Source of the DNA: an uncultured Chlorobiota bacterium
Lineage (GTDB): Bacteria; Bacteroidota; Bacteroidia; Bacteroidales; JAADGE01
Length of the DNA stretch: 47,887 nucleotides
Assembly: GCA_947311445.1 (NCBI GenBank)
Contig: CAMZKV010000048.1
Span: forward strand, 1-47,887
Direction of reading: 5' to 3'
This document shows, piece by piece, positions 2,345 to 38,804 of the stretch. A program made the translations under genes and the position numbers. Each line of letters starts with the position of its first letter. Within the stretch, counting starts at the first letter, position 1. Below the pieces are notes generated by a model, which had not been told where the DNA came from, did not search any database, and saw only the letters and a list, made by a program, of their open reading frames with translations.

Positions 2345-3004
2345 TTATATTTCAATAATATTATTCTTAATTGCAAATTTCACCAAATCAACAACACTAT
2401 TCAAGTTAAGTTTTTTCATAATGCTGGTTTTGTGGGTTTCAACAGTTCTTACACTTATTGAAAGTTTTTCTGCAATGCTTGGATTGTTCATTCCTTCAAC
2501 AACATACAATAAAATTTCTTGTTCCCGTTTTGTAAGATTGCTTAATTTATCATCGGAAACTTTATTGCCAAATTTTGCATTATTAACATAGGATTTTAAA
2601 ATTGTATCGGAAATAGATTTGCTAAAATATTCATTACCATTAAACACTTCATCAATTGCTTTTAGAAGCTCTTCGCGAGTTGTATTTTTGGGTAAATATC
2701 CGTTAATCCCTGTTTTTAGGGCATTAAAAATAAAATCCTCAGAAGTGTACATTGAAAGTATTATTTTTTTAATTTTAGGATAATCTTTCGATAATATTTT
2801 TGAGAGTTCAATACCCGACATTTTTGGCAAAGAAATATCTAACAAAATAATATCTGGTTTTACAGTATTCAGAAGTTTTAAAAGTTCATAAGCATTTTGT
2901 AATTCGCCTACAATTTCAATTTTTACACAATCTGACAAAAGAGATTTTATTCCATCTCTAACTATCTGATGGTCATCAAGTAAAACTATTTTAATTTTTG
3001 TCAT
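2345..3004 (-). CDS. NarL/FixJ-type response regulator (REC + LuxR HTH)
   Basis: A 219-residue DNA-binding response regulator. The receiver domain (about 1-125) has the acidic pair D10-D11, phosphoacceptor D56 in LLDISLPKMSG and the conserved Lys in GYLPKNTT. The C-terminal LuxR helix-turn-helix starts at about 150 (LTKREQEILLYVVEGM, then SIAEKLSISVRTVETH). I chose the ATG at 3004. An upstream in-frame ATG at 3037 would add 11 residues encoded by the repeat element and not belonging to the receiver fold. The cognate kinase gene lies directly upstream on the same strand, separated only by hairpin element B. Target genes cannot be read from the sequence; serine dehydratase, first in the same run, is a candidate. 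Confidence 0.93.
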   Translation of the reverse strand: MTKIKIVLLDDHQIVRDGIKSLLSDCVKIEIVGELQNAYELLKLLNTVKPDIILLDISLPKMSGIELSKILSKDYPKIKKIILSMYTSEDFIFNALKTGINGYLPKNTTREELLKAIDEVFNGNEYFSKSISDTILKSYVNNAKFGNKVSDDKLSNLTKREQEILLYVVEGMNNPSIAEKLSISVRTVETHKTSIMKKLNLNSVVDLVKFAIKNNIIEI

Positions 3005-33235: not shown

Positions 33236-33309
33236 GCCGCCGTAGCTTAGTTGGTTAAAGCGCCTGATTGTGGTTCAGGAGATCAAGGGTTCAAATCTCT
33301 TCGGTGGTA
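33236..33309 (+). tRNA. tRNA-His (GTG anticodon), lacking encoded G-1 and with U72/A73
   Basis: Complete cloverleaf: acceptor GCCGCCG with CGGTGGT, D stem GCTT/AAGC, anticodon stem CCTGA/TCAGG around TTGTGGT (GTG), and T stem AAGGG/CTCTT around TTCAAAT. Position 1 is G at 33236 and pairs with T72 at 33308 as a wobble. The base before it (33235) is C, not the usual His-specific G-1. The discriminator is A (33309), not C73. CCA is not encoded. These are the identity features described for Caulobacter-type tRNA-His, and the next gene is hisS. Confidence 0.95.
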
Positions 33310-33316
33310 CATAAAC

Positions 33317-33347
33317 AAAGGCACTGCAAAATTGTAGTGCCTTTTTT
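33317..33347 (+). terminator. Intrinsic terminator after tRNA-His
   Basis: AAAGGCACTGCAA (33317-33329) pairs with TTGTAGTGCCTTT (33332-33344) over 13 positions with one G.T pair and a two-base loop, then a T run. It lies 8 bases past the tRNA and 34 bases before hisS; read-through would join the two. Confidence 0.85.
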
Positions 33348-33380
33348 GGCACTAAAAATCATTAAAAAATATTTTAAAAA

Positions 33381-34982
33381 ATGAGCAAAAACAAAAGAGG
33401 TGTTTTCCCACGTAAAATTAAAGGATTTAGAGATATAAATCCGGAATTAAACCAATTGCGAACAAAAATAATTACAAAAGCCGCAGAAGTATATAGAAAA
33501 TACGGATATGAGCATTGGGATACTCCATCAATAGAATATGCTGATAATCTTGGAAAATATATGCCAGACAAAGACACAATAGAAGAAGGAGTTTATTCTT
33601 TCAGAAACCCGGAAAACGAACCTGTTTACACAAATAAGGGAGAAGAATTACGAGACAATGACAACTCAGTAATTATGGAAAACCATTATCTTTCAATGAG
33701 ATATGACCTAACTGCCCCTTTAGCTCGATTATATTCTGAAAAAGTTTGGCAAAGCTATATGCAAGGTAATTTAACCGAAAAAAATATGCCACTTTTCAGA
33801 CGCTATCAATTTGGAAAAGTTTTTAGGTATGAAGCAAAATTAGATCCGGGCAGATTTAGAGAGTTTTGGCAAATAGATTTTGATACTGTTGGAACAAATG
33901 ATGTGTCTGCTGATGCCGAAGCCTGTATGATTTTATCAGATGCAATGGAAGCTATTGGTCTTAAACGAAATACATATATTGTAAATGTAAACGATAGAAA
34001 AATTCTTAAAGGATTTCTAGAAAATATTGGAGTTTTTAAACTAAAAATAGAAGATGACGGCAAAATTCTCCAAAGCGAATACTTAGAGCAAGCAATTCTT
34101 AGAATTATTGATAAGGTTGACAAAATTTACCTAAAAGGCGTTCTTGAAGAGCTAGGAAAAGGAAGAACCGACATATCCGGAGCAAAAATAATTGGTTTAG
34201 ATTTACCTGAAAGTATTATTTCTGGAATAAACAATTATTTGTCTGCCTTTGAAAATATAAAAACAAGAGCAGAAATTATAGAAAAACTTACAGAATTCAA
34301 CATAACAAATGATATTTTTAATGAAGGACTTGAAGAACTGAAAAAAATTGATCTTTTATTAAAAAATATAGGATATAAAGATGATAGAATAATGTTTACC
34401 CCTACCCTAGTTAGAGGAATGGCATACTACACAGGACCCGTTTTTGAGGTAAACTCATTACAAACATACAAGGACCACAAAGGAAGGAAAAGAGCAGTTG
34501 GAGCAATATGCGGAGGAGGAAGATACGACGGATTAGTAAAAAATTTACTCGGAATAAAAGCTCCTGCAACCGGTGCATCAATTGGAGTGGACAGGCTAGC
34601 AGAATTACTTATGCTCACAAACCAAAATGATGATTTAGAAGATGGTCCTGTTTTTATTGTAATGTTTGACGATAACTTAATGCCTGAATATCAGAAAATT
34701 GCAGCAGAATTAAGAAATGCAGGAATTGAGACAGAAGTTTATTACGGCTCTCAAAAACAATTAAAAAAACAAATGAAATATGCCGATAAAAAAAATAGTC
34801 CAATTGCATTATTAATTGGAGAAAATGAATTTAAAGAAGGTGTTGTAACTGTTAAAAACCTTAAATTAGGCAAAGACAAATCAATGCAAACAATACAAGA
34901 CAGAAATGAATGGCAATCAAAAATTCAAAAACAAGTTAAAAGAGAAAACTTAATTGAGTACATTTCAAAAATTATAAAATAA
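33381..34982 (+). CDS. hisS: Histidyl-tRNA synthetase, divergent alphaproteobacterial-like type
   Basis: A 533-residue class II synthetase charging tRNA-His. Landmarks: FRDINPELNQLRTKI (motif 1 region), LSMRYDLTAPLARLYSE, motif 2 as FRRYQFGKVFRYEAK then PGRFREFWQIDFDTVG at about 139-171, the His-specific TLVRGMAYYTGPVFEV at 342-357, GGGRYDGL, and motif 3 GASIGVDRLAELL at 398-410; an anticodon-binding domain closes the chain. Motif 2 and the segment DVSADAEACMILSDAMEAIG read like the divergent enzymes of Caulobacter and relatives. The Bacteroides enzyme, as I recall it, has a different motif 2. The enzyme sits beside a tRNA-His with the matching unusual identity bases. Type assignment is from memory and needs a tree. 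Confidence 0.95.
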   Translation: MSKNKRGVFPRKIKGFRDINPELNQLRTKIITKAAEVYRKYGYEHWDTPSIEYADNLGKYMPDKDTIEEGVYSFRNPENEPVYTNKGEELRDNDNSVIMENHYLSMRYDLTAPLARLYSEKVWQSYMQGNLTEKNMPLFRRYQFGKVFRYEAKLDPGRFREFWQIDFDTVGTNDVSADAEACMILSDAMEAIGLKRNTYIVNVNDRKILKGFLENIGVFKLKIEDDGKILQSEYLEQAILRIIDKVDKIYLKGVLEELGKGRTDISGAKIIGLDLPESIISGINNYLSAFENIKTRAEIIEKLTEFNITNDIFNEGLEELKKIDLLLKNIGYKDDRIMFTPTLVRGMAYYTGPVFEVNSLQTYKDHKGRKRAVGAICGGGRYDGLVKNLLGIKAPATGASIGVDRLAELLMLTNQNDDLEDGPVFIVMFDDNLMPEYQKIAAELRNAGIETEVYYGSQKQLKKQMKYADKKNSPIALLIGENEFKEGVVTVKNLKLGKDKSMQTIQDRNEWQSKIQKQVKRENLIEYISKIIK

Positions 34983-35092: not shown

Positions 35093-36148
35093 ATGTATAA
35101 AACAATAATCAGACCTGTCTTATTCCTTTTTAATCCTGAAGCAATTCATGGAATTCTAATCAATTTTTTAAAACTAACTAATACACTTCCTGGAATGAAA
35201 GCCCTTTTGAGGCTTTTTTTTATGTCTGAAAATCAGCAACTTAAAAAAACAGTTTTTGGAATTGAATTTAAAAACCCTGTCGGTCTTGCTGCCGGATTTG
35301 ATAAAAATGCCGAAGTTTTTGAACTTATAAACAACTTTGGGTTTTCATTTATTGAAATTGGATCTGTAACACCACTTCCTCAAAGAGGAAACCCAAAACC
35401 AAGAATTTTTAGGTTAAAAAAAGACAAAGCAATAATAAACAGAATGGGCTTTAATAATAATGGTTTACATGAAGCAATTAAAAAATTAAAAAAACGGAAA
35501 AACAACATTATAGTAGGAGGAAATATTGGAAAAAATACTTCAACATTAAATAAAAATGCAAACCAAGACTATATAAAATGCTTCAACGAACTACACCCTT
35601 TTGTAGATTATTTTACAGTAAACATAAGTTGTCCTAACGTCTGCAACCTCAGAGAACTACAAGACAAAGATGTTTTGTTGGAATTACTTTCAAAACTTAA
35701 AAAAATAAATGCAAGCAAACAAAAACCTAAACCAATATTACTAAAAATATCGCCAGATTTAACATTCCCTTTGATTGATGATACACTGGAAGTAATAAGA
35801 TATACAGGAATAGATGGAATAGTTGCAACAAACACAACAACATCAAGAGAAAAGCTCTCATATTCAAAAGATTACATAAACAAAATAGCAAATGGAGGTT
35901 TAAGTGGAAAACCATTAAAAGACCGTTCAACCGAAATCATTAAATATATTTCTAAAAAAACAAAAGGTAATCTTCCCATAATTGGAGTAGGAGGAATAAT
36001 GAATGCAGAAGATGCAATTGAAAAATTAAATGCAGGAGCATCACTTGTCCAAATCTATACAGGCTTTATCTATGAAGGACCTAGTATTGTAAAAAGAATT
36101 AACAATACAATTATAAAAAACCTTACAAAACAAAAAAATAGTATGTAA
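35093..36148 (+). CDS. pyrD: Dihydroorotate dehydrogenase, class 2 layout with Cys in the catalytic-base position
   Basis: Oxidises dihydroorotate to orotate. The 351-residue protein has the N-terminal membrane-associating helices of quinone-linked class 2 enzymes (FNPEAIHGILINFLKLT), then KNPVGLAAGFDKNAEVF, EIGSVTPLPQRGNPKPRIF, and INRMGFNNNG, all class 2 features. The active-site loop reads TVNISCPNVCNLRELQ, so residue 180 is Cys where the E. coli enzyme has the base Ser175 (NISSPNT); Cys is the class 1 choice. GVGGIMNAEDAIEKLNAGAS near the end binds FMN phosphate. It is first in the operon, 5 bases before pyrC. Confidence 0.95.
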   Translation: MYKTIIRPVLFLFNPEAIHGILINFLKLTNTLPGMKALLRLFFMSENQQLKKTVFGIEFKNPVGLAAGFDKNAEVFELINNFGFSFIEIGSVTPLPQRGNPKPRIFRLKKDKAIINRMGFNNNGLHEAIKKLKKRKNNIIVGGNIGKNTSTLNKNANQDYIKCFNELHPFVDYFTVNISCPNVCNLRELQDKDVLLELLSKLKKINASKQKPKPILLKISPDLTFPLIDDTLEVIRYTGIDGIVATNTTTSREKLSYSKDYINKIANGGLSGKPLKDRSTEIIKYISKKTKGNLPIIGVGGIMNAEDAIEKLNAGASLVQIYTGFIYEGPSIVKRINNTIIKNLTKQKNSM

Positions 36149-36153
36149 TTAAT

Positions 36154-37425
36154 ATGAAAACACTCCTAAAAAACTGCAAAATAAATAACACCATACAAAA
36201 TCTGTTAATAAACGATAAGATTATTTCCTACATTGGGAAAAACACACCAGCTTGCAATAAAGAAATTGATATAAATAACTTAACAATTATACCTGGATTA
36301 ATTGACCCACACACACACATAAGAGATTTAAAACAAGCAGAAAAAGAAGACTGGACATCAGCATCGAATGCAGCACTAAGAGGTGGCACTACTATGGTTT
36401 TTGATATGCCAAATACAAGACCCCCTACCGTAAATTTAGAATATCTTAATTTAAAAAGAGAAAAAGCAAAACTTTCAAAAGTAAATTATATGTTCAATAT
36501 TGCAACAACTTCTTTAAATTTACCAGAAGTTATAAAAATTCTTGAAACTAAACCAACTGACGTAGCAGCTCTAAAACTATTCCTTGCAGGCTCAAACTCA
36601 AATGAATATGTTGATAATGAAGAAATAATTAAACAAATTTTTAACATTTCTCTAAAATATAATTTACCTGTAATTGTTCATACAGAACTTCAAAAATGTG
36701 TTGAAGAATATTCTGCAAAAATAAAACACCCCTCTGTAAAAGACCATAACTACATGAGAAACAGAGAATGCTCAATTAAAGGAACAGAATTACTTATAAA
36801 AATTGCTATAGAAACAGGAAATAAATTGTATATTGCACACACTTCAACAGCTGAAGAAATTGATATCATAAAAGCCAATAAAAACAAATGTAAAGTATAT
36901 TGCGAAACATCCCCGCATCATCTTTTAATTAATGAAGAAATTTTAGAAACAGCGAATAATTTTGGTAAAGTAAATCCGCCACTAAGAACAAAAAACGATA
37001 ACAAAAGAATACTAAAAGGAATAATTGAAGGAACAATTGATACAATTGGTACTGACCATGCACCACACAGAAAAAATGAAAAACTAAAAATTTTCACTGA
37101 AGCTCCTTCAGGTTTTCCCGGCTTAGAAACTTCTTTGCCATTATTACTTAATGAAGTTAATAAAGGAAGTTTTTCAGTAAAAAAACTTATTGAACTGACA
37201 TCATTAAACAGTAAAAACATATTCAATATAAAAAAAAGAGGAAAGATAGAAGAAGGTTATTTTGCAGATTTAACAGTAATTGATTTTAACAAAACATGGA
37301 AAATTGAAGCAAAAAAATTCAATACAAAAGCAAAATATTCTCCTTACGAAGGAATGACAGGCAAAGGCGATATCAATATGACTTTTGTTAACGGTAAATT
37401 AAAGTATAAACAAACAATCAATTAA
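36154..37425 (+). CDS. pyrC: Dihydroorotase (type I)
   Basis: Closes carbamoyl aspartate to dihydroorotate. The 423-residue amidohydrolase has metal ligands in PGLIDPHTHIRDLKQ (His53, His55), the likely carboxylated Lys141 in ALKLFLAGS, His176 in VIVHTE, His229 in YIAHTST and Asp301 in IGTDHAPHRKNEK. The order and length match type I dihydroorotases and the allantoinase relatives; position between pyrD and pyrEF settles the function. It begins 5 bases after pyrD and ends 2 bases before pyrEF. Confidence 0.96.
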   Translation: MKTLLKNCKINNTIQNLLINDKIISYIGKNTPACNKEIDINNLTIIPGLIDPHTHIRDLKQAEKEDWTSASNAALRGGTTMVFDMPNTRPPTVNLEYLNLKREKAKLSKVNYMFNIATTSLNLPEVIKILETKPTDVAALKLFLAGSNSNEYVDNEEIIKQIFNISLKYNLPVIVHTELQKCVEEYSAKIKHPSVKDHNYMRNRECSIKGTELLIKIAIETGNKLYIAHTSTAEEIDIIKANKNKCKVYCETSPHHLLINEEILETANNFGKVNPPLRTKNDNKRILKGIIEGTIDTIGTDHAPHRKNEKLKIFTEAPSGFPGLETSLPLLLNEVNKGSFSVKKLIELTSLNSKNIFNIKKRGKIEEGYFADLTVIDFNKTWKIEAKKFNTKAKYSPYEGMTGKGDINMTFVNGKLKYKQTIN

Positions 37426-37427
37426 TT

Positions 37428-38804
37428 ATGAAAAAAGAACTTTTCATCCTAAGACTACACGACATAGGAGCAATAAAATTTGGAGAATTTACTCTAAAAA
37501 GTGGTAAAAAATCTCCTTTTTATTTTGATTTGCGAGATATGATTTCATACCCCGATATTCTTAACACAGCAGTAAATTTAATTGTCGATAAAATTGAAGA
37601 TTTAGATTTTGATTATATTTCAGGAATACCATATACTGCACTCCCCATTGCAACATTAGTTGCAGACATATTAGACAAACCGCTTATATATGCAAGAAAA
37701 GAAGAAAAATCCTATGGAACAAAAAACACAATTATAGGAAAATTTGAAAAAGATTCAAAATGCTTAATTATTGATGATTTAATAACATCAGGAGAAAGCA
37801 TAATTGAAATATCAGAAAAATTTAATAAAGAAGGTATTGAAACAATCGATTTCTCGGTACTTATTGACAGAAGCGACAATGCAAAGCAAAAATTAAGTAA
37901 TGCAGGATTTAATCTTCACCCAATATTTGAATTAGATGAAGTCATTAAAATTCTTAAAACTAACAATAGAATTACAAAACAAAGAGCTTCTCAAATAAAA
38001 AAATATACAAACGTAAAGCATGAAAAAACAGATATAAAAGTTAAAAATAATCATTTAACCAAAATATTAAAGCAAAAAATAGAACAAAAAAAATCTAATC
38101 TAATACTTTCGCTTGATGTTGATAATCAAAAAGATTTTTTTGAAATTATTGACAAAACATATGAGCATATTGTAATGGTTAAAACTCACGTCGATATTAT
38201 AAATGATTTTGATGAAAACTTCATAAAGAAACTTAAAGAATACGCAATCACTCGTAATTTTATGATTTTTGAAGACAGAAAATTTGCAGACATAGGAAAT
38301 ACTGTTCAAAAACAATATCAAAACGGAATATATAAAATAAAACAATGGTCAAATTTCATAACTGTTCATGCAAGTCCGGGAGAAGGAATTTTACAAGGTC
38401 TTTTTTCTGGAGTTGTTAACAGAAGTTCATTTTTATTAGCAAAAATGTCATCAAAAGGCAATCTAATGAACGACAATTACACAAGACAAGTTTTTGAAAT
38501 GGGAAAAAAATATTCCGATGTAGTTTCAGGATACATAGTTCATGCAAACACAAAAGAAGAATTACAAAGATTAAAAAACAAAATTCCAAAAGATCAATTA
38601 TTATTAATGCCCGGAGTAAAACTCAAAGCAGGTAAAGATGCCACAGGTCAACAATACACAACCGTAGAAAATGCAATGCAAGGTGGTGCAGATTGTATAA
38701 TTGTGGGAAGAGGAATAATTGCGGATAGTAATCCGGAGAAAATTGCAAAAGAATATAAGGAGCGTGCTTGGAATATTTACTCAAAAAACAAAGTAAATAA
38801 ATAA
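37428..38804 (+). CDS. pyrEF: Bifunctional UMP synthase: orotate phosphoribosyltransferase + OMP decarboxylase
   Basis: Carries out the last two steps to UMP in one 458-residue chain. Residues 1-180 are the phosphoribosyltransferase: FGEFTLKSGKKSPFYFDLR, GIPYTALPIATLVAD, and the PRPP motif KCLIIDDLITSGES at 111-124. Residues about 207-458 are the decarboxylase: SNLILSLDVDN, MVKTHVDII with Lys252, and FEDRKFADIGNTVQKQYQNG with the D283-K285-D288 set, then LMPGVKLKAG and ADCIIVGRGI. The EDRKFADIGNTV and KTHVDI blocks, GIPYTALPIAT, and the domain order all resemble eukaryotic UMP synthase. There is no frameshift or internal start; a short basic linker joins the halves at about 185-206. Confidence 0.95.
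   Translation: MKKELFILRLHDIGAIKFGEFTLKSGKKSPFYFDLRDMISYPDILNTAVNLIVDKIEDLDFDYISGIPYTALPIATLVADILDKPLIYARKEEKSYGTKNTIIGKFEKDSKCLIIDDLITSGESIIEISEKFNKEGIETIDFSVLIDRSDNAKQKLSNAGFNLHPIFELDEVIKILKTNNRITKQRASQIKKYTNVKHEKTDIKVKNNHLTKILKQKIEQKKSNLILSLDVDNQKDFFEIIDKTYEHIVMVKTHVDIINDFDENFIKKLKEYAITRNFMIFEDRKFADIGNTVQKQYQNGIYKIKQWSNFITVHASPGEGILQGLFSGVVNRSSFLLAKMSSKGNLMNDNYTRQVFEMGKKYSDVVSGYIVHANTKEELQRLKNKIPKDQLLLMPGVKLKAGKDATGQQYTTVENAMQGGADCIIVGRGIIADSNPEKIAKEYKERAWNIYSKNKVNK

Follow-up and report, generated by a model that had tools for sequence, protein, structure and literature searches.

A tRNA-His without an encoded G-1 beside a long histidyl-tRNA synthetase: a putative non-canonical histidine identity pair in Bacteroidota

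In most bacteria, the motif IIb position of histidyl-tRNA synthetase (HisRS) is a Gln that contacts the G-1:C73 pair of tRNA-His, whereas in derived Alphaproteobacteria it is a Gly (numbered 123) (PMC3937112). Bacterial loss of G-1 has been described only in one branch of Alphaproteobacteria (PMC4284800; PMC9976931), and histidine identity in Caulobacter in vitro consists of A73, U72 and the anticodon (PMC9976931). The loss of G-1/C73 has been termed a synapomorphy, with likely one origin in bacteria, and has been ascribed to a eukaryote-derived HisRS (PMC3937112). We found no account of a G-1-less tRNA-His in Bacteroidota in the literature searched; an earlier report is not excluded, some key originals having been outside the search.

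The DNA analysed is a 47,887-nucleotide stretch (positions 1–47,887 of contig CAMZKV010000048.1) of an uncultured Chlorobiota bacterium placed in the Bacteroidales; the whole stretch is referred to here as the window. Its only tRNA gene, identified by direct reading of the bases and by ARAGORN, is a tRNA-His (GTG) at positions 33236–33309 of the plus strand. No G-1 is encoded: base -1 is C (33235), followed by G1 at 33236, with U72 at 33308 and the discriminator A73 at 33309. The acceptor stem (GCCGCCG/CGGUGGU) has seven pairs, of which the first is the G:U pair G1:U72, and CCA is not encoded in the gene. Downstream, after a gap of 71 bases, lies hisS (33381–34982, plus strand), assigned by its TIGR00442 match and by the HisRS tree, which encodes a long HisRS of 533 amino acids. 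The enzyme scores 330.6 bits against TIGR00442 and passes the curated cut-off of 286.75, contains PF13393 and PF03129 (class II core and anticodon-binding domain), and has the motif 2 sequences KLDPGRFREFWQIDFDTVG and LVRGMAYYTGPVFEV. The initial annotation, made without database searches, had claimed a tRNA-His with C-1, G1:U72 and A73 that lacks G-1:C73, followed by a hisS with these same motif 2 sequences; both claims held. The features of the two genes and their linkage are shown by the sequence. An AlphaFold model of the enzyme has the HisRS fold (mean pLDDT 82; low confidence at residues 49–78 and 102–113) and is closest to the solved structures of Nostoc HisRS (Z 32.1) and human HisRS (Z 31.0).

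Comparison of hairpins across loci identified a terminator-like hairpin, then TTTTT, between the two genes (33319–33342, plus strand); hairpins follow tRNA-His in most linked loci, with an AAGCAYT-like stem common to them. An attenuator between tRNA-His and hisS was considered and rejected, because similar hairpins are also present 3' of canonical and unlinked tRNA-His genes, and they are therefore ordinary tRNA terminators. Farther downstream of hisS, the window encodes pyrD (35093–36148), an amidohydrolase (36154–37425) that is likely a dihydroorotase, and a fused orotate phosphoribosyltransferase and OMP decarboxylase of 458 amino acids (37428–38804, plus strand), in which PF00156 precedes PF00215, the order found in eukaryotic UMP synthase.

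We compared the window genome (G000) with 60 relatives by scoring HisRS against TIGR00442. Most relatives encode a HisRS of about 455 amino acids that scores near 400 bits; enzymes of 520–540 amino acids scoring about 330 bits were found in G000, G004, G015, G017 and G055. All 25 canonical relatives, including members of the window's own genus, have a tRNA-His with G-1, G1:C72 and C73, and none has a tRNA-His near hisS. Immediately 5' of hisS in G000, G004, G015 and G017 is a tRNA-His that has A73 and lacks G-1. Had typical Bacteroidota tRNA-His also lacked G-1 and C73, the interpretation offered by the initial annotation would have been refuted, and this was not the case. The window pair and the canonical pair of its closest relatives have the same job and the same HisRS fold, but canonical Bacteroidota combine G-1:C73 with Gln118 in a shorter enzyme, whereas the window has A73 and no G-1 together with Asp at the Gln118 position, and the two enzymes are about 30% identical. 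Six genomes (G016, G019, G031, G033, G037 and G050) have no hisS above the TIGR00442 cut-off; one of these, G050, has a listed completeness of 100% and encodes a canonical tRNA-His (L316:1006–1080).

The window assembly (113 contigs, 94% complete) has 34 tRNAs, including a single tRNA-His, and a single hisS. No second tRNA-His, canonical or otherwise, was found in it; four tRNAs could not be typed and, being 83–88 bases long, are not tRNA-His. A TIGR00442 search of the same assembly revealed no second hisS above the cut-off, the other weak match scoring 19.7 bits over the last 68 profile positions, far below it. A canonical tRNA-His and hisS elsewhere in the genome, the remaining condition that would have refuted the initial annotation, were therefore not seen. 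Exactly one hisS was present in 39 of the 40 genomes with a long HisRS (hereafter carriers) that were searched; in the remaining carrier, a complete hisS is accompanied by a truncated one of the same type. Long-type and canonical HisRS were not seen together in any of the relatives or of these 40 carriers, and tRNA type matched enzyme type in every genome in which both genes were seen. In G454, a second tRNA-His (A73) is followed by a truncated, 257-amino-acid hisS of the same family (L163/L187), and the tRNA-His with the full hisS copy elsewhere (L111) has G73; the extra copy may be a duplicated cassette in decay.

As in eukaryotes (PMC4284800), A73 is combined here with the absence of an encoded G-1, which favours a route in which a Thg1-type enzyme adds G-1 to the transcribed tRNA and HisRS still reads G-1. 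We consider this route very unlikely. A search that detects Thg1 (PF04446) in Methanosarcina acetivorans returned none in 42 carrier genomes, and Thg1 addition was rejected on this absence; further points against it are that the Gln118 position is altered and that the enzyme groups with those of Alphaproteobacteria without G-1. Single copy of the pair and absence of Thg1 are shown. Since no G-1 is encoded and no Thg1 is present to supply one, the mature tRNA-His should begin at G1, like other tRNAs, a 5' end that is inferred. By the same inference, the window pair would resemble the G-1-less tRNA-His of Trypanosoma brucei and Acanthamoeba, which is histidylated without G-1 and without Thg1 addition (PMC4284800). 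Unlike the window HisRS, the enzymes of those organisms are eukaryotic and belong to another lineage, and Trypanosoma HisRS structures align with the window enzyme at 28–29% identity.

The window HisRS is related to alphaproteobacterial enzymes. A tblastn search against plasmids and chromids returned alphaproteobacterial HisRS at the top (38%, E about 1e-96), with Bacteroides-type HisRS far lower (30–31%, about 1e-39). In a tree of 96 HisRS, including 54 of the long family, 5 from Alphaproteobacteria (Rhodobacterales and Rhizobiales, Caulobacter itself not included) and 27 canonical Bacteroidota sequences, the long family and the Alphaproteobacteria grouped together (support 100) and separately from canonical Bacteroidota; the one human HisRS sequence, on a long branch, fell outside the alphaproteobacterial group. 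A topology uniting the long family with canonical Bacteroidota HisRS was rejected (p-AU 0.0016), and insertions and signature residues common to the long family and Alphaproteobacteria are absent from other HisRS. Convergence limited to motif 2 was also rejected, as the tree built without motif 2 retained the split with support 100/100. This phylogeny is shown, and the long HisRS and the G-1-independent alphaproteobacterial HisRS would have had a common ancestor. Because the stems between them are long, the long HisRS is an old sister of the alphaproteobacterial enzyme and not a recent import from Alphaproteobacteria. The initial annotation's description of an alphaproteobacterial-like HisRS, which grouping with ordinary Bacteroidota enzymes would have refuted, therefore held in the sense of a sister group; the pair does not simply reproduce the Caulobacter system, having Asp in place of Gly and, across its family, a base 72 that varies.

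When genome contigs were searched with an alignment of the long HisRS, 60 loci were recovered, belonging to Bacteroidales, Saprospiraceae/Lewinella, Ignavibacteria and Kapabacteria and to a few assemblies of Acidobacteria and Aminicenantes; in a 395-genome sample of the phylum, nothing matched apart from the window and three genomes from a single other family. Nearly all genomes compared are metagenome assemblies. BLAST and a covariance model located tRNA-His in 50 carriers; in 41 of these it immediately precedes a hisS of the same orientation, and in 9 it lies elsewhere. Pattern searches found none in eight further carriers. Base 73 is A in 44 of the 50, G in 4, U in 2 and C in none, and the absence of G-1/C73 beside a long HisRS is beyond chance, given G-1:C73 in 25/25 canonical relatives versus C73 in 0/50 carriers. 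G73 occurs in L111, L119, L125 and L144 and U73 in L114 and L158, so the family varies at base 73 as well. U72 is present in 24 of the 50, the rest having G, C or A; the claim that U72 is a feature of the system thus held for the window but not across the long family. The sole carrier with G at -1 is G055, whose tRNA-His (L258:1488–1561, minus strand) has G1:C72 and A73, the latter facing that G. Also in G055 (L066/L132, around position 3000), G+C rises sharply, from about 0.33 to 0.65, where hisS begins, and the low-GC genes upstream have what may be an acquired look.

Base -1, which is not G in 49 of the 50 carriers, bears on a rival in which a single leader nucleotide at -1 (C, U or A) survives RNase P cleavage and HisRS requires only an additional 5' nucleotide, not specifically G. 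In support of this rival, U-1 is found in 40 of the 50, making a U-1:A73 pair possible in most, and the A. pernix HisRS tolerates A-1 and C-1 (PMC9976931). Against it, C-1 stands opposite A73 in the window and G004, A-1 is found in five carriers, and G73 and U73 occur, so there is no conserved -1:73 pair; U-1 may reflect AT-rich leaders or an RNase P preference. A requirement for a leader base is accordingly very improbable, and a tRNA that begins at G1 remains the preferred, inferred reading.

The tip of motif 2, D155-P-G-R-F-R-E-F (33843–33866, plus strand), aligns D155 with E. coli Gln118 (printed as 108 in the alignment, in which the E. coli copy is trimmed by ten residues). The residue is Asp here versus Gly in Alphaproteobacteria, with which the window HisRS has in common P156 and the whole Pro-Gly-Arg that follows. 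Within the long family, Asp accompanies G1:U72, and other residues accompany C1:G72, U1:A72 or G1:C72, with agreement in 45 of 46 pairs. Forecasts of base 72 for nine unlinked genomes, fixed before looking, were right in eight; the exception was G055, which has Asp in motif 2 but G1:C72. C73 was absent from all nine, some of which are near relatives. This covariation is shown, and on the tree it comprises only about three independent changes; a sign test on the 2–3 independent pairs cannot reach significance. The link between the D155 position and base 72 is a strong lead that is unproven, and a D155–base 72 contact is inferred.

These features define how the window pair stands to the alphaproteobacterial system of Caulobacter, Rhizobiales and Rhodobacterales. 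They are alike in having no encoded G-1, A73, U72 and no Thg1, and the enzymes in their clade, insertions and Pro-Gly-Arg. They differ in the Asp at the Gln118 position and, across the long family, in the varying base 72, the usual adjacency of tRNA-His and hisS, the occurrence in other phyla and the long intervening stems. Because the Gly feature of motif 2 is not met (Asp155), the window pair is classed as a sister variant and not a member of the alphaproteobacterial system; that it works in the same way is inferred. Asp instead of Gly, together with a varying base 72, argues that the identity rules are related, not identical, to those of Alphaproteobacteria.

The distribution of the long HisRS is patchy, which is shown. 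In an rpoB tree, carriers are scattered within one family, which takes three or more changes of enzyme type, and G000 and G004 are nested in an otherwise canonical genus. An assembly artefact, with a foreign contig placed in a Bacteroidales bin, gains some support from the use of metagenome assemblies and from the sharp GC jump at hisS in G055. It is all but excluded, as G004, a close relative, carries this cassette with the same flanking genes on a contig of 168 kb, carriers lack a canonical hisS, and the pattern repeats in 50 genomes. A second rival, vertical inheritance of the long HisRS from an old Bacteroidota ancestor with many losses and no joint transfer, is supported by the coverage of Bacteroidota, Ignavibacteria and Kapabacteria by the family and by the single group formed in the 96-HisRS tree by the enzymes of the three carriers in the window's family. 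We regard it as unlikely: it requires that the canonical pair was regained or that both pairs coexisted for a long time, yet no genome with both was seen, and carriers are nested among canonical species. The HisRS distance between carriers is also too small for their rpoB distance (ratio 0.9–1.3, versus about 1.4–2.5 for canonical pairs at similar depth), although a slowly evolving enzyme could be an alternative cause, and the cassette has different flanking genes in the window, G015 and G017. Transfer or evolution of enzyme and tRNA as a unit, as the initial annotation had proposed, is therefore supported but not proved; joint transfer or replacement as a two-gene unit is the best reading, inferred from sequence alone.

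Taken as a whole, the pair is very likely a self-contained, non-canonical histidine identity pair, although there are no biochemical data and charging without G-1 is inferred. In this model, the long HisRS would charge its tRNA-His via the acceptor end, by A73 and, in the window lineage, also U72. The motif 2 loop would read this end, the Gln that reads G-1:C73 elsewhere being replaced by Asp followed by Pro-Gly-Arg, and the enzyme would also read the GUG anticodon, a further inference. Bacteroidota and neighbouring phyla would mostly have kept the long HisRS beside its tRNA, and in scattered lineages the resident HisRS and tRNA-His would have been replaced together. A bolder reading, for which we see no clear balance of evidence either way, is that a mobile tRNA-His/hisS cassette has repeatedly displaced the canonical pair in Bacteroidota and that base 72 has been rewired within the family with a matching change at the Gln118 position, giving several histidine identities among near relatives.

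The loss of G-1/C73 in other phyla makes the trait unusable as an alphaproteobacterial marker, and a bacterial sister group of alphaproteobacterial HisRS provides another possible source to test beside a eukaryote-derived origin. Long HisRS/tRNA-His pairs are candidate orthogonal sets, their orthogonality to the E. coli pair being inferred. Natural switches between canonical and G-1-less systems within one genus open the replacement of a tRNA identity rule to study, and the patchy distribution of the G-1-less pair hints that such a rule can be replaced as a two-gene unit.
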